The notes under the pieces were generated by a model. That model saw only the letters and a program-made list of their open reading frames with translations, had not been told where the DNA came from and searched no databases. Positions 7,564 through 38,848 of a stretch of 38,848 nt of DNA are shown here, in pieces. The first letter of the stretch is position 1; each line of letters begins with the position of its first letter. Source of the DNA: Bacteroidales bacterium. GTDB lineage: Bacteria; Bacteroidota; Bacteroidia; Bacteroidales; UBA932. The translations under genes and the position numbers were made by a program. The stretch is from assembly GCA_017477245.1 (NCBI GenBank), contig JAFUWY010000005.1, positions 1-38,848 of the forward strand, written 5' to 3'.

Positions 7564-10254
7564 TTATTTGATAATGATTTCGTCGATGAAGATGAAGCCG
7601 GGGCTGCCGGCGCCGGGGTGCCATTCGGGGATGGTGCCGATGTTCTTGGCGAACACCTTGACGTAGCGTGCGCGCACGTCGGCGGGCACCTCGCAGTCCC
7701 AGATGCGCACCTCGTAGTCGCGCTCGTCCATGGTGTTGTCCACGCGCGCGAGCGGCGTGAAATGCTCCCCGTCCTGCGAGACGGAGAACTCCACGTACCG
7801 GGGCATCCAGATCCAGGAGCGGGCGTCCTGGCAGAAGCCCGCGCAGACGGAGCGGATGTCCCGCACGGAGAGCAGGTCCACCACGGCTTCGAAGTCGGTG
7901 TCCTGGTAGCCCTGCCAGCCGCCGGTGCGCCAGTTGAGGCCGCCGCGGAAGCCGTCGATCAGGCCTTCGTCGCCGCCGGCCGTGTACTGGCGGCTGTAGC
8001 GGGAGCGGATGTCGATGGTGCGGTCGCGGGCGATCTGGTGCACGGCGCAGCGGGTGGTGAAGCTGCGGCGGTCGCCCACCTGTGCGTAGGCTTCCATCGT
8101 GCAGGCTTCGCGGACGGTGAAGGGGCCTTCGTAGGGGCGGAACTCGTCCGTGCCGATGCGGTACCAGATCCGGCCTTCGCCGGTGAGGGCCACGCGGGTG
8201 CTGTCGGTGAAGATGTCGTTGTCCAGGACGAAGGCCGGATTGGTGACGATCGTCTTGGGGAGGCGGGTGAGGGCGGGAGATTCGCCGGTCAAGCCGGCGA
8301 ATGACGGAGCGGAGCCGGCGAATGACGGGGTCAAGCCGGCGAATGACGGAGCGGAGCCGGCGAATGACGGGGTCAAGCCGGCGAATGACGGGGCGGAGCC
8401 GGCGAATGAAGCGGTCAAGCCAGGGGTGACGGGGTAGCGGTCGAGGGCGGAGAGGACAAACCAGGCGGACATCTGGCCGCAGTCGTCGTTGCCGCAGAGG
8501 CCGTCGGGAGCGGAGCTGTAGAGGGCCTCGAGGATCTGGTCTACGCGTTTCTGGCGCTTGTCGGGACGGCCGGCGAAGTCGTAGAGATACGCCACGTGGT
8601 GGCTGGGTTCGTTGCCCTGGGCGTACTGGCCGATGGTGCCGGTGATGTCGGCCTGGGTGCGGCCGGTGTTGCCTTCGCGGGCGCCGAACATCGCGTCGAG
8701 GCGCGCCTCGAGGGCCTCCGGCCCGCCGAGCGCCTCGACGAGCCCGGCGATGTCCTGCGGCACGAAGAGGCTGTACTGCCAGGAGTTGGCCTCGGTGTAG
8801 TTGTTGTTGACCTCGAGCGGGTCGAACGGCGTGAACCAGCGGCCGTTGAGGCGGGCGCGCATGAAGCCCGTCTCCGGGTCGAAGACGTTGCGCCAGTACT
8901 GGGCGGAGGTCATGTAGCGCTCGTAGACGTCCATGCGGCCGAGGTATTTCGCGACCTGGGCGGTGCACCAGTCGTCGTAGGCGTATTCGAGGGTCTTGGA
9001 CACGCTCTCGTGCTCGTCGTCGGCGAGCACCAGGCCGTTGGCGCGGAAGCTGTCCAGCCCGAATTCCGGGCGGGTCGAGGAGGCGATCAGGGCCTCCAGG
9101 GTCTTCTCCACGTCGAAGTCGGTGAAGCCGCGGGCGATCGCGTCCGCGATCACGGGCGCGGCGTTGTAGCCGATCATGCAGTTGGTCTCGTAGCCCCAGA
9201 GCTCCCAGACGGGGAGCTTGCCGCACTCGTCGTAGATGGACAGGAAGGTCTTGAGGAAGTCGTAGCTGCGCTCCGGCTCGATCTCCCACAGGAGCGGGTG
9301 CTCGCCGCGGAAGGTGTCCCAGAGCGAGAGGACGGTGTAGCGCTCCCAGCCTTCCGCGCGGTGGACCTGGCGGTCCATGCCGCGGTATTCGCCGTTGGCG
9401 TCGGAGTAGAGCGAGGGGTGGATGCCCGTGTGGTAGAGGGCGGTGTAGAAGCGCCGCAGGTGCTCCTCGTCGTCCCAGGGGCAGTCGAGCTTGGCGAGGT
9501 ACGCCTCCCACGCGGCGGTGGTCTGCGCGCGCAGCGCTTCAAAGCTCGCGGGGTACTCGGACTGCAGGTTGAGGCGGGCGTTCTCCTCGGAGACGGAGCT
9601 GATGCCGACGCGCAGGGTCACGGTCCGCGCGCTGCGCGGGAACGTGAACACGGCGCGCCGCCCCCCGTCCGTCAGCTTGCAGCGGGCGGGCGCGGAGAAT
9701 TCGATCCAGAAGTAGACGTCCTGCCCGCGCGCCCAGCTGCTGGACTGCCGCCAGCCGCTCACGGCCGTGCGGCCCTGCGGCGTGATGCGCCAGCCGTCGA
9801 GCGGGTCGCGGTGGCGCAGGTCCAGTGTGACCTCGGGCCGCGCCCCGGCGGGGAAGGTGTACTCGTGCATGCCGACCCGCCGGCCGGCGGTCAGCCGCAC
9901 CTGCACCCCGGGATCCTCCAGGAAGACCTCGTAGTAGCCCGGGGCGGCCTTTTCCCGCGCATGCGAGAAGGCCGAGGGCTGCGTGCCGGGCAGCAGCAGG
10001 ACGTCGCAGAGGTCGTCGCAGCCGGTGCCGCTGAGGTGCGTGTGGGAGAATCCGTAGATGACCCCGTCGCTGTAGTGGTAGCCGCTGCAGCCGTCCCAGT
10101 CGCCCGCCTTGGGGCGCGTGTCGGGGCTGAGCTGCACCATGCCGAAAGGCGCCACGGCCCCGGGGAAGGTGTGGCCGTGCGCGTCCGTGCCCACGAACGG
10201 GTTGACGTACTGGGTCAGCAGCGCTGCCAGGAGGGAAAGGATCAGATTTGCCAT
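7564..10254 (-). CDS. GH92 family alpha-mannosidase with C-terminal F5/8-like module
   Basis: GH92 enzymes are calcium-dependent inverting exo-alpha-mannosidases that trim N-glycans and yeast mannan. A short hydrophobic signal leads into the family hallmark VNPFVGTDAHGHTFPGA, PFGMVQLSPDT and SHTHLSGTG. Catalytic-region motifs are TLEYAYDDW near residue 420 and GNDDCGQMSAW near residue 588. After the catalytic domain, residues ~608-658 are a low-complexity heptapeptide repeat (SFAGSAP/SFAGLTP) coded by the 21-bp array at 8280-8425. The last ~230 residues resemble an FN3-like segment plus a discoidin/F5/8-type carbohydrate-binding module ending in IFIDEIIIK. It follows the sulfatase gene by 57 bp. 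Activity on alpha-1,2 links is the commonest in the family but linkage cannot be read here. Confidence 0.93.
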   Translation of the reverse strand: MANLILSLLAALLTQYVNPFVGTDAHGHTFPGAVAPFGMVQLSPDTRPKAGDWDGCSGYHYSDGVIYGFSHTHLSGTGCDDLCDVLLLPGTQPSAFSHAREKAAPGYYEVFLEDPGVQVRLTAGRRVGMHEYTFPAGARPEVTLDLRHRDPLDGWRITPQGRTAVSGWRQSSSWARGQDVYFWIEFSAPARCKLTDGGRRAVFTFPRSARTVTLRVGISSVSEENARLNLQSEYPASFEALRAQTTAAWEAYLAKLDCPWDDEEHLRRFYTALYHTGIHPSLYSDANGEYRGMDRQVHRAEGWERYTVLSLWDTFRGEHPLLWEIEPERSYDFLKTFLSIYDECGKLPVWELWGYETNCMIGYNAAPVIADAIARGFTDFDVEKTLEALIASSTRPEFGLDSFRANGLVLADDEHESVSKTLEYAYDDWCTAQVAKYLGRMDVYERYMTSAQYWRNVFDPETGFMRARLNGRWFTPFDPLEVNNNYTEANSWQYSLFVPQDIAGLVEALGGPEALEARLDAMFGAREGNTGRTQADITGTIGQYAQGNEPSHHVAYLYDFAGRPDKRQKRVDQILEALYSSAPDGLCGNDDCGQMSAWFVLSALDRYPVTPGLTASFAGSAPSFAGLTPSFAGSAPSFAGLTPSFAGSAPSFAGLTGESPALTRLPKTIVTNPAFVLDNDIFTDSTRVALTGEGRIWYRIGTDEFRPYEGPFTVREACTMEAYAQVGDRRSFTTRCAVHQIARDRTIDIRSRYSRQYTAGGDEGLIDGFRGGLNWRTGGWQGYQDTDFEAVVDLLSVRDIRSVCAGFCQDARSWIWMPRYVEFSVSQDGEHFTPLARVDNTMDERDYEVRIWDCEVPADVRARYVKVFAKNIGTIPEWHPGAGSPGFIFIDEIIIK
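8280..8425. repeat. Palindrome plus 21-bp in-frame tandem array inside the GH92 gene
   Basis: A perfect palindrome, ATTCGCCGG-TCAAG-CCGGCGAAT, at 8280-8302 starts an array of about six 21-bp units. The units alternate between GCCGGCGAATGACGGAGCGG(A) and GCCGGCGAATGACGGGGTCA(A). Because 21 is a multiple of three, the array stays in frame and encodes SFAGSAP/SFAGLTP repeats in a linker between domains. The CCGGCGAATGACGG core is shared with the array at 16323-16507, which also carries one full palindrome at its end. Confidence 0.85.
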
Positions 10255-16262: not shown

Positions 16263-16322
16263 GCCGGGTCCGTCCGTTCCGTCCGTTCATTCGCGGGCCT
16301 GTCCGTTCGTTCGTCGGTGCAT

Positions 16323-16507
16323 CCGTCGTTCGCTGACCCCGACCCCTTCCGTCATTCGCCGGCTCTGACCCCTTCCGTCGTTCGCTGACCCCGACCCCTT
16401 CCGTCATTCGCTGACCCTGACCCCTTCCGTCGTTCGCTGACCCCGACCCCTTCCGTCGTTCGCTGACCCCGACCCCTTCCGTCATTCGCCGGCACCGACC
16501 GGCGAAT
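16323..16507. repeat. 26-bp tandem array ending in a full palindrome
   Basis: Seven units of exactly 26 bp, starting at 16323, 16349, 16375, 16401, 16427, 16453 and 16479, follow the pattern CCGTC(G/A)TTCGC-TGACCCCGACCCCTT. The last unit turns into a palindrome, ATTCGCCGG-CACCGA-CCGGCGAAT (16484-16507). The unit shares the core CCGTCATTCGCCGG (reverse strand CCGGCGAATGACGG) with the array in the GH92 gene. It lies between queF and the SDR promoter. The open minus-strand frame across it is a by-product of the repeat. Confidence 0.88.
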
Positions 16508-17533: not shown

Positions 17534-17581
17534 GCTGCCCATGTCTCTGCTCGCCACGCTTCCTCTATCACCCACCCTCCG

Positions 17582-17841
17582 GCCCGGAAAAGGTCGATAT
17601 CCTGCCCGAACCCCCTCCACCACCCATCCTTCGGCCAGGATAAGGTCGATATCCTGCCCGACCCCCCTCCGTCATCCACCCTTCGGCCTGGATTTGGGCT
17701 CTATCCTGCCCGGACCCCCTCCGCCACCCACCCTTCGGCCCGGATAAGGTCGATATCCTGCCCGAACCCCCTCCGGCAACTACCCTCCGGCCCGGATAGA
17801 GACCTTATCCTGCCCGGACCCGGGCAGGCGGAGGTCCGGAC
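17582..17841. repeat. 52-bp tandem array, five units (first cassette)
   Basis: Units begin at 17582, 17634, 17686, 17738 and 17790, a period of exactly 52 bp. The core is GCCCGGATAAGG, then TATCCTGCCCG(A/G), then ACCCCCTCCGG. GGATA and TATCC within the unit can pair. The units vary at about 10-20% of positions. The same unit, at the same period, is found at 36929-37131. There are no unique spacers between units, so it is not a CRISPR array. Confidence 0.9.
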
Positions 17842-17995
17842 GAGCCCCAAAAGCTCGTCCAGATCCTCCGGCAGCCGCCGCTCTGCGTATTGAGCGGCGG
17901 CGGTGCCCCAACTTCGACCAATCTCTTGTCTCCCGGCTCAGAAACAGGACCCGCAGTGAGCCGCCGCGCCAGGTTATGCGCGGCGGCGAGTCGCC
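17819..17995 (+). repeat. Conserved left block with three hairpins (first cassette)
   Basis: This 177-bp block matches 37114-37292 closely. It carries hairpin 1 (GGACGAGC / GCTCGTCC), hairpin 2 (GCCGCCGCTC / GAGCGGCGGC) and the REP-like hairpin 3 (GCCGCCGCGC-CAGGTTAT-GCGCGGCGGC, 17960-17987). The sequence between hairpins 2 and 3 differs between the two copies while the stems are kept. Confidence 0.85.
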
Positions 17996-18403
17996 CTCTC
18001 GCCGGGAGTGTAACGGCTAAATAGTTGAATATCAGTGTTCGCGCCTCACTCTTTTTGCGCTTTTTGGCGATAGGAGAGAGCATGCTATGCTATGCGGGCG
18101 ACTCACCCTCTTATCGTAGCTCATAGACCAAATACTCATTCAACCATGCACCCAACCATACATCTAACCATACCCCGCCCCCTGACATCTTACACTCCTT
18201 CGTGGGCGTGATGAGCAAACAATTGACAATAAATGTTTTATGAAATCTCTAGTACCTCCCGGAGGGACGAGAGATTTTCGTTTTTATTGATAATCAGCTA
18301 GTTCCTCATCACGCTTTTGGGAAGGAAGCAGATGGGATTTGAAATGGGATGCCAGAGGGCGAATCACAGCCGCGCAATACGCGGCGCGGCTGTTCCCTGC
18401 GGG
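17950..18403. mobile_element. REP-bounded cassette without a transposase gene
   Basis: The segment is bounded by two inward-facing inverted copies of one ~46-bp unit: 17950-17995 and, on the opposite strand, 18403-18358. Both have CCCGCAG(T/G)GA outside, a GC-rich hairpin in the middle and GA(G/T)TCGCC inside. The ~360-bp centre (17996-18357) codes for no recognisable protein. It holds an inverted pair GCGTGATGAG / CTCATCACGC (18206-18215 and 18305-18314), a second pair GAGTCGCC / GGCGACTC (17988 and 18097), and the terminator-like hairpin at 18243. The arrangement mirrors 37247-38558, where the centre is a RAYT transposase gene. Mobility in trans is an inference. Confidence 0.55.
18243..18285 (+). 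terminator. Terminator-like hairpin in the cassette centre
   Basis: AAATCTCT (18243-18250) pairs with AGAGATTT (18270-18277), followed by TCGTTTTT. With no gene nearby on this strand it may end a small RNA made from within the cassette; no promoter was identified with confidence. Confidence 0.45.
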
Positions 18404-18536
18404 GAGACGTTAGGTGTTTCATTCTGGAATGAAGGGTTTCGATGGTGCACCACCGCCGCGCATAACCAAGCGCGGCGGTTAGCGTGGCTCGCCGGGAGTT
18501 TTGGGAACTCCCGGCGGCCCCGCTTGCCCGGAGGCA
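18357..18536 (-). repeat. Conserved right block with three hairpins (first cassette)
   Basis: This 180-bp block has the same length as 38512-38691 and matches it at both ends. It carries REP-like stems CAGCCGCGC / GCGCGGCTG (18367-18392) and CCGCCGCGC / GCGCGGCGG (18453-18478), both oriented opposite to the left-block REP. A third stem, GCCGGGAGTT-TTGGG-AACTCCCGGC, is at 18491-18515. The ~45 bp between the two REPs are divergent between copies. Confidence 0.85.
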
Positions 18537-18659
18537 GTCCACAGGTGGACAAGGTTGGATTTCAAGGGGTGTACCAGGTACGCCACCCCTGCCTCAGAAC
18601 CACTTCCAGGGCACATTGGGTGGACCTGGTACAGGGCTTCAAAGTGGACCAGGTCCACT
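18537..18659. repeat. Cluster of GTGGAC/GTCCAC palindromes
   Basis: GTCCAC-AG-GTGGAC (18537-18550) and AGTGGACC-A-GGTCCACT (18643-18659) are perfect palindromes. Another GTGGAC lies near 18620, and GGACCAGGTCC also occurs before the second cassette at about 36881. The function is unknown; repeated half-sites of this sort may bind a regulator. Confidence 0.5.
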
Positions 18660-18677
18660 GTTTGGACGGGAAATGAA

Positions 18678-18889
18678 GGAGTCGCAGAGGAAGGGTAAAA
18701 GGTGTCGCGGAGTCAGGGCAAAAGGAGCCGCAGAGGGAGGGTAAAAGGAGCCCAGAGTCTGGGGGAAAGGGATCGCGGAGGAAGGGTAAAAAATGAGCCC
18801 AGAGTCTGGGGAAAAGGGATCGCAGAGGGAGAGTAAAAGGAGCCAGAGTTTGGGGAAATGGGATCGCAGAGGAAGGGTAAAAGGAGTCG
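18678..18889. repeat. Degenerate ~23-bp purine-rich tandem array
   Basis: About nine units of 22-25 bp alternate between forms like GGATCGCAGAGGAAGGGTAAAA and GGAGCCCAGAGTCTGGGGAAAA. The plus strand is almost wholly purine. It lies just beyond the terminator of the GH2 gene. Open frames across it are repeat artefacts. Confidence 0.8.
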
Positions 18890-35149: not shown

Positions 35150-35732
35150 TCCAGCGGCCCAGCATCGCCAGGGCCCAGCCGGCCAGCAGGCCCACGGCGA
35201 ACCCTACGCACACGTCTCCGAAGAAGTGCTTGCCCACGAACACGCGGCTCATCCCCACGAGGATGGCCCAGATGAAGATGCACCAGCCGTAGATGCGGTA
35301 GGTGTGCGTCTTGTCATTGCGGAAGCAGAAATACGAACACGCCGCGAAGCCCATCGCGTTGGCGGCGTGGGCGGAATAGAAGCCGTAGAGGTTGCCCTTG
35401 CCCTCGAGGATGTGCAGGGCCCCGTCAACCATGTTCTGGTCCCAGCAGGGCCGCAGGCGCTCGAAATAGGCCTTCGTGAAATTGGCCAGCTGGTCGCAGA
35501 ACACGATGGTCAGCACGCACGCGAGCACGGCGATCGTGGCCCGTTTCCACCCCAGGCGGATGTAGAGGAAGACCAGCACGGCCGCATAGAGGACGAACCA
35601 GATCTCCTTGTTGGAGAATACCTGCCAGACGGCGTCGGTCACCGGGCAGTGGAGGGCGTTGATCGCGAGGGTCACGTCCTGGTCGATGTGGTGTGCCTGC
35701 CGCAGCAGGTTCAAGCTTGCAATGCCTTCCAT
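35103..35732 (-). CDS. PAP2-family membrane phosphatase
   Basis: A 209-residue membrane phosphatase with five to six spans, starting at the ATG at 35732, 22 bp inside the end of obgE. The three PAP2 motifs are present: KAYFERLRP, then [11 protein letters not shown], then [12 protein letters not shown]. Motif 2 reads S-A-H instead of the usual P-S-G-H; the catalytic His is kept. Members remove phosphate from undecaprenyl pyrophosphate, phosphatidic acid or PGP; the true substrate is not clear. The frame is open upstream to 35852, but that extension lies inside obgE and lacks membrane character. Confidence 0.88.
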
Positions 35733-36706
35733 AGCGTATCCTTGAGTTGTTGCAGACCTTCTCCCGTGCTCGACGAGATGAACACGCAGGGGATCTTGCG
35801 CGGCAGGTGGGGCTTGATCATCTTCTCGAGCTCCTCGTCGATCAGGTCGCATTTGGTGATGGCCAGCACGCGCTGCTTGGTCAGCAGTTCGGGGTTGTAG
35901 AGTTTCAGCTCCGCGAGCAGGGTCTTGTAGGCCGCGGCGATGTCTTCCTCCTCCACGCTCACCATGAAGAGCAGCACGGAGTTGCGCTCGATGTGGCGCA
36001 GGAAACGGATGCCGATGCCCTTGCCCTCGTGGGCGCCCTCGATGATGCCCGGGATGTCGGCCATCACGAAGGACTTGTCGTCATAATAGCGCACGATGCC
36101 GAGGTTAGGCTCGAGCGTGGTGAAGGCGTAGGACGCGATCTTGGGCTTGGCCGCGGTGATGGTGGCGAGCAGCGTGGACTTCCCGGCGTTCGGGAATCCC
36201 ACCAGGCCCACGTCCGCCAGAAGCTTCAGTTCCAGGATGAAGATACCCTCCTCCCCTTCTTCGCCCGGCTGGGCGAACCGCGGGGTCTGGAGGGTCGCGG
36301 TCTTGAAGTTGTTGTTGCCCAGGCCGCCCTTGCCGCCGCGGCAGAGGATGCGCTCCTCGCCGGCCTCCATCATCTCGAAGAGGACCTCGTCGGTCTCGGC
36401 GTTCTTCGCCACGGTGCCGATCGGGACGTCGAGGTAGATGTCCGTTCCGTTCTTGCCGGTGCGCAGGTCGCTTCCGCCCTTCTCGCCGTCCTCGGCGTGG
36501 ATGTGCTTGCGGTATTTGAGGTGGATCAGGGTCCAGAACTGCGGATTGGCCCGCAGGATGATATGACCGCCCCGGCCGCCGTCGCCGCCGTCCGGTCCCC
36601 CCTTCGGGACATACTTGGCGCGATGCAGGTGCGCCGACCCCGCACCCCCATGCCCGGAGGCGCAATAGATCTTGACGTAATCTATGAAATTGCTCTGTTC
36701 GGCCAT
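35711..36706 (-). CDS. obgE: GTPase Obg/CgtA
   Basis: A ribosome-associated GTPase needed for 50S assembly and stress control. The N-terminal glycine-rich Obg fold ([31 protein letters not shown]) covers residues ~1-158. The G domain has G1 GFPNAGKST, switch I region [10 protein letters not shown]3 DIPGII, G4 TKCDL and G5 SSSTGEG. At 331 residues it lacks the extra C-terminal OCT domain found in some Obg proteins. A perfect -7 box (TATCTTTG) lies 27 bp upstream. Confidence 0.97.
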
Positions 36707-36836: not shown

Positions 36837-36928
36837 CTCTGTAACCCCAGATTCCGCCAATCATTTCCCCTCGCCCTCAGCGGACCAGGTCCACCACCCA
36901 TCTCCTCCTCCCACCACCATCACCATCG

Positions 36929-37131
36929 GCCCGGATAAGGCCCCTATCCTGCCCGGATCCCCTCCGGTAGCTACCCTTCAGCCCGGATAAAGGCCTTATC
37001 CTGCCCGAACCCCCTCCGGTAACCACCCTTTGGCCCGGATAAGGCCCCTATCCTGCCCGGACCCCCTTCGCCACCCACCCTTTGGCCCGGATAAGGCCCC
37101 TATCCTGCCCGAACCCGGGCAGGCGGGGGTC
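36929..37131. repeat. 52-bp tandem array, four units (second cassette)
   Basis: Units begin at 36929, 36981, 37033 and 37085, the same 52-bp period and sequence as at 17582-17841. Here the central bases read mostly CCCCTATCC rather than TCGATATCC. The last unit runs straight into the conserved left block, as in the first cassette. Confidence 0.9.
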
Positions 37132-37292
37132 CGGACGAGCCATCAAAGCTCGTCCGGATCCTCCGGCAGCCGCCGCTCTCCATATTGAGCGGCGGCGGTG
37201 CCCCAGTACCCATGCGAATATATAGTCAATAATCCCTGCAGTCGAACCCGCAGTGAGCCGCCGCGCCAGGTTATGCGCGGCGGCGAATCGCC
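37114..37292 (+). repeat. Conserved left block with three hairpins (second cassette)
   Basis: This 179-bp block matches 17819-17995. Hairpin 1 is longer here (the GGACGAGC / GCTCGTCC stem extends through CCGG). Hairpin 2 is GCCGCCGCTC / GAGCGGCGGC. Hairpin 3 is the REP-like GCCGCCGCGC-CAGGTTAT-GCGCGGCGGC at 37257-37284. Confidence 0.85.
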
Positions 37293-37410
37293 TGGCCTTC
37301 TTGTATCTCAGGAGTTGTTTTAGAAGAACTCCACTCCCCCTCAACTCTTCCAAGAATGCATGGCGTCAAATCCGAGGGCATCAGGGCTTGCATTACCCTC
37401 GTCGAAGTCT

Positions 37411-38304
37411 TCATTCGAACAACCTTTTGAGATCCTGTTCGGAAATATGGAAAATGCGTCCCAACTGTTTGATATTGACCCCGGAGCGTTTCAATAACAT
37501 GCTGCACAGGACGACTCGCTGATTCATGTCAAGAACTTCGATCTCCGAGACATCATACTGCTCCCGGGCTGCTTCCAGTACCATCCGTATGACATCCTGA
37601 TCCGGTAAGGACAGCGACTTGCGGTTCATTTCCTCGTTGACTTTGGCCTCCATCCGCTGGTTCAGCATAAACATAAAGCATGCGGGCTGCTTGAAAGCAC
37701 GCTCCGCCAACTTGCAATCCGTATAACAGGCCGGCCAGATCATCCCATCGGGAAGTATGATCCAGTCGTCGGGCAGATCGATCTTGGTCTCAAGGAGATT
37801 CCTCAGTTTAAAGCTGGAAAGGCTCCCGACCGTGCTCCCCTCCGGAAAACCTTGATTGGAGAAAACGAGTCCGGCAGAACTCCATCGGTAGTTGGTCGGA
37901 GCATATGCCATTCCGGCGGCCATCGGATTCCTGAACACGTAGGCGATCTTCTCCTGAAGGTCATCGTTGTCGGAGATCTGCCAGGCATCGATCTCCCAAG
38001 ACTCCTGGATGGCAGCCCCCGAACGATGGTTTGCCTGCCAGGTCATTGTCAGCCGGTGGAAAAGCGCCATCCATTTGAGACAGTCGGAGCGGGTGCCATA
38101 CAAGATGAAATGTACATGATTGCCCATCAGGCAGAAAGCGACCACGATGACCGGGAAATCCTTCCTCCCCCTCGCTACGCAGAATGCAATCCGGTTCATG
38201 CCGGCGATAAATTCACGCTCATCGGCGAAAAGGACACTGCTTTTGAAACCCTTGGTTGCGCAGTGATAATAATGCGGTTTGTTCATAGCTTTGTTCTTTG
38301 TCAT
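37411..38304 (-). CDS. REP-associated tyrosine transposase (RAYT, IS200-like Y1/HUH)
   Basis: A single-strand DNA transposase of the Y1 HUH type. The N-terminal part (KPHYYHCATKGFKSSVLFAD) leads to the metal-binding HUH motif in CLMGNHVHFILYG. The catalytic Tyr lies in KIAYVFRNPMAAGMAYAP, followed by YRWSSAGLVF; the NP-x-AG-M and Y-x-WSS pattern marks RAYT proteins. At 297 residues it is nearly twice the usual RAYT length. The C-terminal ~130 residues end in a helix-turn-helix-like segment (GVNIKQLGRIFHISEQDLKR). The ATG at 38286 is an alternative start, six codons in. A near-consensus -7 box (TATCTTTA, minus strand 38322-38315) precedes it. The flanking hairpin repeats make it the likely enzyme acting on them. 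Confidence 0.88.
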   Translation of the reverse strand: MTKNKAMNKPHYYHCATKGFKSSVLFADEREFIAGMNRIAFCVARGRKDFPVIVVAFCLMGNHVHFILYGTRSDCLKWMALFHRLTMTWQANHRSGAAIQESWEIDAWQISDNDDLQEKIAYVFRNPMAAGMAYAPTNYRWSSAGLVFSNQGFPEGSTVGSLSSFKLRNLLETKIDLPDDWIILPDGMIWPACYTDCKLAERAFKQPACFMFMLNQRMEAKVNEEMNRKSLSLPDQDVIRMVLEAAREQYDVSEIEVLDMNQRVVLCSMLLKRSGVNIKQLGRIFHISEQDLKRLFE

Positions 38305-38411
38305 GTTTCGGGGCTAAAGATAATGACCGGTCTGGAACCCGCCAATGGATTTCGTCCCAGAAAAGAAGTCTTCGTCACATTTTGTGATTTTTTAATGGTC
38401 AGATACGATTT

Positions 38412-38429
38412 TTTATATCGAGATATAAA
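38412..38429. promoter_or_regulatory. Perfect 18-bp palindrome upstream of the transposase
   Basis: TTTATATC-GA-GATATAAA lies about 108 bp before the transposase start. It may be an operator or simply AT-rich symmetry. The rest of 38305-38511 is AT-richer than its flanks and shows no convincing gene. Confidence 0.35.
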
Positions 38430-38511
38430 CCTCGGTGGTGGCTGGTTTTTGGGGAGAATACGATTGATAGAGAGATTATTATCTATTTTATGCATGTGTT
38501 ACCGATGGTCC

Positions 38512-38691
38512 GGGCGAATCACAGCCGCGCATAACCGGGCGCGGCTGCTCCCTGCGGGGAGAGGCTTGGTATTTAATGCCTGGACAGCTGGATGTGATGG
38601 TGCACCGCCGCCGCGCATAATCAGGCGCGGCGGTTAGCGCGGCTCGCCGGGAGTTTTGGGAACTCCCGGCGGCCCCGCTTGCCCGAAGGCA
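38512..38691 (-). repeat. Conserved right block with three hairpins (second cassette)
   Basis: This 180-bp block is equal in length to 18357-18536. The REP-like stems are CAGCCGCGC-ATAACCGG-GCGCGGCTG (38522-38547) and CCGCCGCGC-ATAATCAG-GCGCGGCGG (38608-38633). The end stem is GCCGGGAGTT / AACTCCCGGC (38646-38670). Read on the minus strand, the loops are CCGGTTAT and CTGATTAT, close to the CAGGTTAT loop of the left block. Confidence 0.85.
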
Positions 38692-38848
38692 ACCATTATC
38701 AGAAAACTTGTCGTTTCCTGATTTTGGTTGACTCGGGTTATAGATTATTACTGATAAAAGTTGACCATTCGTCGTTATCCCTAAGATGGGTTTACCATCC
38801 GAGTCTTATCACTGTCTGGGGTTGACTGGAGGCTGTAGGCCGGAAGGA
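38692..38848. other. Gene-free end of window
   Basis: After the conserved right block the sequence becomes AT-richer. It contains no recognisable gene, RNA or repeat that I can support. A gene cut by the window edge cannot be excluded. Confidence 0.4.

Follow-up and report, generated by a model that had tools for sequence, protein, structure and literature searches.

Introduction

RAYT proteins (TnpA_REP) bind folded single-stranded DNA palindromes in a strand-specific manner, cut them and rejoin them, activities that have been demonstrated in vitro in other bacteria (PMC8266576), and the REPs of Escherichia coli depend on GTAG and on a bulge in the stem. For a Bacteroidetes class of RAYTs (subclass 2.6, Bertels group 5), 'atypical secondary structures' have been described on the flanks of the gene, copies of which are also present at other places of the genome (PMC6006769).

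The locus analyzed here belongs to a Bacteroidales bacterium whose assembly comprises 2.38 Mb in 48 contigs (the source genome). The stretch of 38,848 nucleotides studied, hereafter the window, is the entire contig C28 of this assembly. Our preferred reading, held with modest confidence, is that of a RAYT-type (TnpA_REP, HUH/Y1) locus, in a Bacteroidales bacterium from the gut or rumen, framed by compound, non-canonical palindromes (END), the RAYT of which would move END cassettes in trans.

Results

Organization of the locus

Rightwards, the locus comprises a 52-bp tandem array, a left three-hairpin block, a gene on the minus strand and a block that is the mirror image of the first. The features are the following (window positions; R1 is the covariance model of END):

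36928..37116, plus strand: tandem array of a 52-bp unit, 3.6 copies, immediately adjoining the left END on its A side (TRF)
37117..37293, plus strand: left END (LH type), GGGC-A-B-linker-C-GCCC (R1 154.8 bits, alignment, folding)
37124..37165, plus strand: hairpin A of the left END (inverted-repeat search, folding)
37169..37196, plus strand: hairpin B of the left END, 8-nt loop TCCATATT (folding)
37257..37284, plus strand: hairpin C of the left END, 8-nt loop CAGGTTAT (folding)
37411..38304, minus strand: RAYT-type HUH/Y1 transposase gene, 297 aa (ORF, motifs, NF047646)
38512..38684, minus strand: right END (RH type), inverted with respect to the left END (R1 178.3 bits)
38522..38547, minus strand: hairpin C of the right END, 8-nt loop CCGGTTAT on the minus strand
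38608..38633, minus strand: hairpin B of the right END, 8-nt loop CTGATTAT on the minus strand
38636..38679, minus strand: hairpin A of the right END

The original prediction had placed a Y1/HUH transposase gene between inverted 46-bp hairpin units, with a 52-bp tandem array and extra hairpins outside them. The gene (an ORF with HVH and a conserved Tyr) and the array were both found there, and the extra hairpins are A and B with their mirror images. The 46-bp unit is inverted and has an 8-nt loop as described, but it represents the inner third of END, which has three hairpins and 173 nt, and is not a whole unit. The inward-facing arms measure 49 nt each (37247-37295 and 38510-38558), are 86% complementary and contain one 8-nt loop each.

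Other repeats were observed in the window. Tandem arrays with periods of 21/42, 26 and 23/47 bp are located at 8287-8435, 16322-16500 and 18668-18889, respectively, and inverted repeats of the TGGACCTGGTCCAC type lie just outside END cassettes, both in the window (18545-18658) and in a relative's locus (L099, 2250-2380 and 2600-2720). The last 135 bp or so of the window (38714-38848) are also found where contig C12 ends, next to a reading frame of integrase-like type; the contig appears to stop inside an insertion sequence, as suggested by a motif.

The RAYT protein

The HUH motif of the window RAYT is GNHVHF and its tyrosine lies within AYVFRNP; H63, H65 and Y122 are invariant across 18 aligned RAYTs. 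The protein matched the NCBIfam family NF047646 with an E-value of 2e-9 and 37.5 bits, the cutoff being 80, and is one of the 13 aligned RAYTs, out of 18, that match this family. The Pfam family Y1_Tnp was found in 10 of the 18 (E≤0.1), and the window RAYT gave no Pfam match up to E 5. The transposase had been predicted to have about 300 residues and an HTH-like tail; its length agrees with this, but the tail is without Pfam support, since no Pfam HTH family was detected in the window RAYT or in the 18 aligned RAYTs (E≤0.1).

In the source genome the window RAYT gene is single copy, its nearest paralogue being 32% identical, and RAYT matches amount to 9 with the window protein and 11 with the alignment. 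An IS200/IS605 insertion sequence, for which several near-identical tnpA copies would be expected, was discarded because the gene is single copy. The best 80 named RAYT relatives are all Bacteroidales, mostly metagenome-assembled genomes from rumen or gut, including Candidatus Cryptobacteroides, Coprenecus and Merdivivens. The protein had no match in phage records.

A RAYT-like protein of genome G037 (locus L170) aligns to the RAYT alignment over 273 columns with a probability of 99.5 and has no HxH at the usual place. At this locus a small HRDC-domain gene lies upstream of the HUH-less gene (L170, 1236-1577 and 1693-2613), both within an END pair. The HRDC gene as a constant partner was dismissed, as it was seen at the G037 locus alone among the loci examined.

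Fold and covariation of the END unit

The 173 nt of END are closed by GGGC at one end and GCCC at the other. Between them, starting from GGGC, come the long hairpin A, hairpin B, a variable linker (about 40 nt) and hairpin C, the loops of B and C having 8 nt each. A MAFFT alignment was made of 22 copies, 20 from the source genome and 2 from genome G065, in which the loops are NNGGTTAT or NNCGTATT with few variants. RNAalifold predicted 40 pairs on this alignment, 14 of them with a two-sided compensatory change. When 65 copies from the source and related genomes were aligned, 95.1% of the cells were paired, 34 of the 40 pairs had a two-sided change and the covariation score was 0.398 versus 0.024-0.064 for slid structures, values to be read with the leaning of this alignment towards the R1 model, to which it was fitted. 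Folding as single-stranded DNA gave z values against dinucleotide shuffles of -6.06 for left A, -4.90 for left B, -4.26 for left C and -3.35 for right C, the four hairpins included in this analysis. The tags GTAG, GTGG and CGTC, taken as the mark of a canonical REP, were absent on either strand within 6 nt of the feet of hairpins A, B or C in all 22 copies, and recognition would therefore rest on the loops and stems.

A transcribed structured RNA that happens to be repeated (a terminator, an attenuator or a sRNA family) would also account for the strong covariation and for the multi-branched fold that GGGC/GCCC closes, although palindromes acting as folded single-stranded DNA are equally expected to covary, and the inverted pairs put END on both strands of one intergenic space. 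That the hairpins might belong to an unrelated transcribed RNA gene, a possibility already raised with the original prediction, was checked with Rfam. In the window tRNA alone reached the gathering score, and the two cassettes gave weak matches, all far below the gathering score (best E 0.083); END as an Rfam RNA family was rejected. A transcribed RNA is in our judgement an improbable explanation, and the folded single strand of the preferred reading is retained below.

Copies of END and their left and right types

The left and right blocks have 29 and 30 matches, respectively, in the source genome, so the END hairpins are not a chance occurrence. A search with R1 revealed 24 END places (25 rows, one of which was dropped as an antisense overlap); 20 places scored at least 144 bits. 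Among 300 genomes of the same genus, source included, 35 contained R1 matches at E≤1e-3 with the best 9 candidates scored per genome; these E-values are rough, and many of the weaker genomes have a single match near E 1e-4. A laxer R1 search matched 34 of the 35 again, the exception being G156. Further copies, whose absence from related genomes would have spoken against the original prediction, thus exist in the genome and its relatives.

Inverted pairs include 15 of the 24 END places, and a further one in C31 has its partner cut by the contig end; the places at C8:54 and C10 sit at contig ends. Eight END pairs are visible in the source genome, with the partner partial in C4 and C31 and the ENDs shortened in C30. 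In a tree of the 22 END copies, shown without support values, five left ENDs cluster together, as do 11 right ENDs, and a third subtype is formed by four copies (C4, C8, C38) that occupy the left side in both pairs with a visible partner. The separate left and right groups are more in keeping with cassettes that spread whole, their ends being defined, than with a random assembly of hairpins. In some relatives (L165, L166, L167, L172, L173, L175) END pairs occur in reverse order, with the A sides inward.

Filling of the cassettes

A second cassette in the window (17569-18529) has no gene inside and carries another palindrome, designated CORE, at the place occupied by the RAYT in the first one:

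17569..17821, plus strand: 52-bp array, 4.9 copies (TRF)
17822..17996, plus strand: left END (LH type)
18206..18314, plus strand: 109-bp palindrome CORE
18357..18529, minus strand: right END (RH type) (R1 192.5 bits)

One of the eight visible END pairs of the source genome encloses a RAYT, and the other seven enclose a non-coding filling with a separate CORE palindrome of 109-110 bp. The units therefore recur with and without the gene, as a count of copies with a transposase had been proposed to establish. The view of array, hairpins and RAYT as one element fails, since they are not obligate together, and that of a RAYT embedded in a REP cassette stands as far as the framing by hairpin units is concerned, the cassette itself not being RAYT-specific.

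CORE folded as single-stranded DNA gave z values of -5.6 and -8.7. In 11 copies (model R2), 91.2% of the cells were paired and nine pairs had two-sided changes, a number reached by 43 of 500 shuffles, so the excess is partial only. The source genome contains at least 25 distinct CORE sites among the matches listed (52 matches counting both strands), and CORE was matched in 25 of the 35 genomes. Sixteen of these 25 listed sites lie within 1 kb of an END, compared with 0.57 expected, all on the C side; the other nine are located away from ENDs, and a CORE confined to cassettes is thereby ruled out. The 21 loci of relatives chosen for END or RAYT contain 14 distinct CORE sites, with the C side of the nearest END facing 10 of them and the A side four, and five of 71 listed CORE sites of relatives are near an END (2 on the C side, 3 on the A side). 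A fixed side for the palindrome thus holds for the matches listed in the source genome and fails in the relatives, and the order of the elements is consequently not fixed. The cassette is therefore mosaic, combining two palindrome families or more.

The cassettes might be passive mosaics, unrelated palindromes piling up in tolerant intergenic spots, with their order a by-product of the duplication of one ancestral mosaic. The CORE sites away from ENDs, the variable side of CORE in relatives and the other repeat families that adjoin the cassettes agree with this explanation. It accounts poorly for the excess of listed CORE sites near ENDs and their common C side in the source genome, and for the array-END-palindrome order kept by G037 with a different END sequence, and we consider it quite improbable.

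Association of END with RAYT genes

The comparison included 91 END rows and 130 RAYT places (135 rows, gene fragments merged) from 19 of the 35 genomes, those with the strongest END matches. An END lies no more than 500 bp from five of the 130 RAYTs, versus 0.57 expected under uniform placement (Poisson 3e-4), and from four when the window, which prompted the search, is left out (Poisson about 0.003); the test assumes uniform placement, and END and RAYT both sit between genes in repeat-rich places. The other 125 RAYTs have no END within 500 bp. The enrichment of END near RAYTs is real but loose. The five cases are the window (END on both sides), G177, G225, contig C7 of the source genome (a partial END) and G037 (a RAYT-like gene between two ENDs). 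The G177 RAYT is 63% identical to that of the window, and its END begins 48 bp upstream of the start of the gene.

The 80 named RAYT loci yielded five R1 matches at E≤0.1. One of them (L274) duplicates G177; in L291 and L318 the END precedes the RAYT match by about 150 and 310 bp, respectively, in L279 it lies 2.4 kb from the RAYT, and the match in L284 is weak (E 0.02). Among the orthologues at least 52% identical (G177, G065, L275, L276, G108 and G200:C8), R1 found an END beside the gene in one of six, G177, and other hairpins are found instead of END beside the RAYT of G065 and G108. The framing of a RAYT by recurring inverted hairpins, as originally proposed, is accordingly true of the window, and the hairpins have copies elsewhere, but it does not extend to most close orthologues.

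The gene obg is present at window 35711-36706, L188 490-1479 and L165 1-564, which makes this a recurrent site. In the window it adjoins the RAYT, as it does in G177, where it is turned round, and in G225 an END pair is located upstream of it.

END pairs could also be non-autonomous, MITE-like elements in which END serves as a long terminal inverted repeat; another enzyme or host recombination would move them, and the RAYT would be a chance occupant. The low share of source-genome pairs with a RAYT, the five close orthologues without END alongside (some with other hairpins there) and the division of left and right ends into separate subfamilies, as in a transposon, are compatible with such elements. 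Chance occupancy is harder to reconcile with the additional RAYT-END neighbourhoods in G177, G225, G037, L291 and L318, and no other transposase was noticed in a non-systematic reading of END pairs. We regard a MITE-like origin as somewhat unlikely, and mobilization by a RAYT in trans remains the explanation preferred here.

Tandem arrays of about 52 bp

TRF was applied around 65 END copies (63 of the 65 R1 rows, two partial ones having been dropped, together with L291 and L318). Fourteen of these copies, from six genomes and including eight of the source genome, have a 51-53-bp array at most 31 bp away on their A side. Arrays of 75 bp occur at three copies, all of G037, and a 52-bp array on the opposite side at one (L291); at the other 47 copies, TRF detected no array of period 50-80 within 31 bp. 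The arrays of different species have unrelated unit sequences.

Eight of the 80 named RAYT loci contain a total of 11 arrays of 52-53 bp, and seven of the 11 end 108-304 bp upstream of the RAYT match. No array of period 30-120 was found in 58 control loci with ordinary genes (195 kb). The difference, 8 of 80 versus 0 of 58 loci, gave a Fisher value of 0.011 with loci unequal in length, the control loci being shorter; the count is restricted to the 80 named loci, without an overlapping set of 29. The eight array-bearing loci may be one clade, because seven of them are consecutive in the identity ranking. Arrays of the 52-bp type are present at two of the nine RAYT loci of the source genome, in one of them on both sides. 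On contig C7 a distant second RAYT has 51-bp arrays on both sides (L007, 716-1435 and 2809-3174) and a partial END.

When nine array stretches delimited by eye were folded as single-stranded DNA, z ranged from +0.42 to -1.98, and the units are therefore not strong hairpins. Inverted arms longer than in at least 96% of their own shuffles are nevertheless present in eight of the 11 unit consensuses from the RAYT loci. In the arrays near the RAYTs of L290-L296 and L318, ACCT or AGGT occurs in the best inverted arms of 10 out of 11; this could possibly be a guide motif. A length of 52 bp would correspond to about five helical turns. The 51-53-bp period is kept beside RAYTs although the unit sequences are unrelated, and may reflect a spacing that is measured.

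Filled and near-empty sites

The original prediction had called for a comparison of empty and filled sites in close strains, and one such locus has been found. In contig C41 of the source genome, 1.82 kb separate an ATPase-type gene (named by eye) from a tRNA-Val gene and contain a whole cassette and other repeats. Six of the seven best-matching relatives are readable in this interval (G058 ends before tRNA-Val); it measures 36-87 bp in G065, G258, G205, G015 and G177, the contig of G258 ending inside the tRNA, and 527 bp in G008. The gene beyond tRNA-Val is the same one in G065, G015 and G008. With 1.82 kb against 36-87 bp in five of six relatives, the C41 block has been gained or lost. Several repeat families make up this block, and neither an exact joint nor a target duplication was established from it.

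A clean empty site was also sought for the second cassette of the window, the 3.3-kb query of which matched 96 of 400 genomes, and was not found in the loci examined. In G258, G205 and G008, the genomes with rows for both neighbours of this cassette, the neighbours are on different contigs. The scan of 23 second-cassette loci with R1 detected no END except a partial match of 29 nt (23.9 bits) at the right neighbour in G177 (L240). The stretch 17822-18545 of the window had no match in plasmid records; a plasmid source for this stretch and a phage source for the RAYT protein are thus not borne out.

Discussion

By analogy with the TnpA_REP proteins of other bacteria, the RAYT could bind the folded single strand of the END hairpins where single-stranded DNA is exposed, for example at replication. 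It would then cut and rejoin END single strands, copying or moving END-bounded cassettes in trans, and new copies would settle beside existing palindromes, giving rise to BIME-like mosaics. Binding and cleavage of END, and mobilization by the window RAYT rather than by another RAYT or by host recombination, are what we infer from this analogy.

A broader proposal, which we put forward tentatively as a possibility, is that Bacteroidales harbour composite single-stranded DNA cassettes with covarying three-hairpin left and right ends and a replaceable cargo, either a RAYT gene or 110-bp palindromes, and that GTAG-independent RAYTs move these cassettes in trans. The cassettes would be tied to arrays in which the unit sequence changes but the 51-53-bp period persists, as though about five helical turns were being measured by a protein complex, and HUH-less RAYTs such as that of G037 may persist as binding or regulatory subunits.

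For a flank known as 'atypical secondary structures' (PMC6006769), the unit is now defined: it covaries, can be searched for with a model, has left and right types and a cargo, and occurs at a site seen both filled and near-empty. With the END unit resolved, binding, cutting and trans-mobilization without a GTAG guide become directly testable.

In the open-access literature, which leaves subscription journals aside, neither a three-hairpin END of left and right types nor its exchangeable filling was found, nor were arrays of 51-53 bp next to RAYTs. Among the closest described systems is RAYT subclass 2.6, which shares with the window a Bacteroidetes host, an HUH/Y1 protein and a gene flanked by structures with genomic copies (PMC6006769). 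Its motifs NH[LIV]H, WQ and YIH[QN]NP (PMC6006769) compare with NHVH, TWQ and YVFRNP in the window RAYT, and the GTAG-contact region of its protein is said not to be conserved (PMC6006769), END being likewise without GTAG. By contrast, the value of 179 given for the subclass 2.6 protein in a table column taken as length (PMC6006769) differs from the 297 aa of the window RAYT, and the available text of that account describes no three-hairpin unit and does not contain the word 'tandem' (PMC6006769). The prediction of a distinct Bacteroidetes RAYT system can be kept as that of an elaborate variant; 'distinct' is too strong, because Bacteroidetes RAYTs with atypical flanks have already been published (PMC6006769).

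TIRYTs resemble the window RAYT in being Y1 proteins longer than the core and located between inverted repeats (PMC6006769). However, their flank consensus GGGG[AT][CG]A[CG] (PMC6006769) has a single match, at 38556, within 36900-38848, with no inverted pair, and Pfam detected no HTH family in the window RAYT that would correspond to their C-terminal HTH-like extension. The BrickBuilt MITE of Porphyromonas gingivalis is also an intergenic Bacteroidales element, with tandem repeats, a leader and a tail with inverted-repeat ends, and 19 copies in one strain (PMC4596501); its 23-nt repeats are inside the element (PMC4596501), whereas the arrays of about 52 bp described here are outside END, with a RAYT nearby.

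With the REPIN/BIME systems of Pseudomonas and E. coli, the locus shares inverted palindrome pairs both around and away from the RAYT (PMC3116915, PMC8266576). RAYTs beside ordered tandem clusters of REPINs, and palindromes nested in or next to others, are likewise described there (PMC3116915), and the 109-110 bp of CORE are near the 110-bp spacing of one REPIN group. The REPs of these systems carry the cleavage-relevant GTAG, whereas END has no such tag and is characterized by 8-nt loops, three hairpins and separate left and right types.
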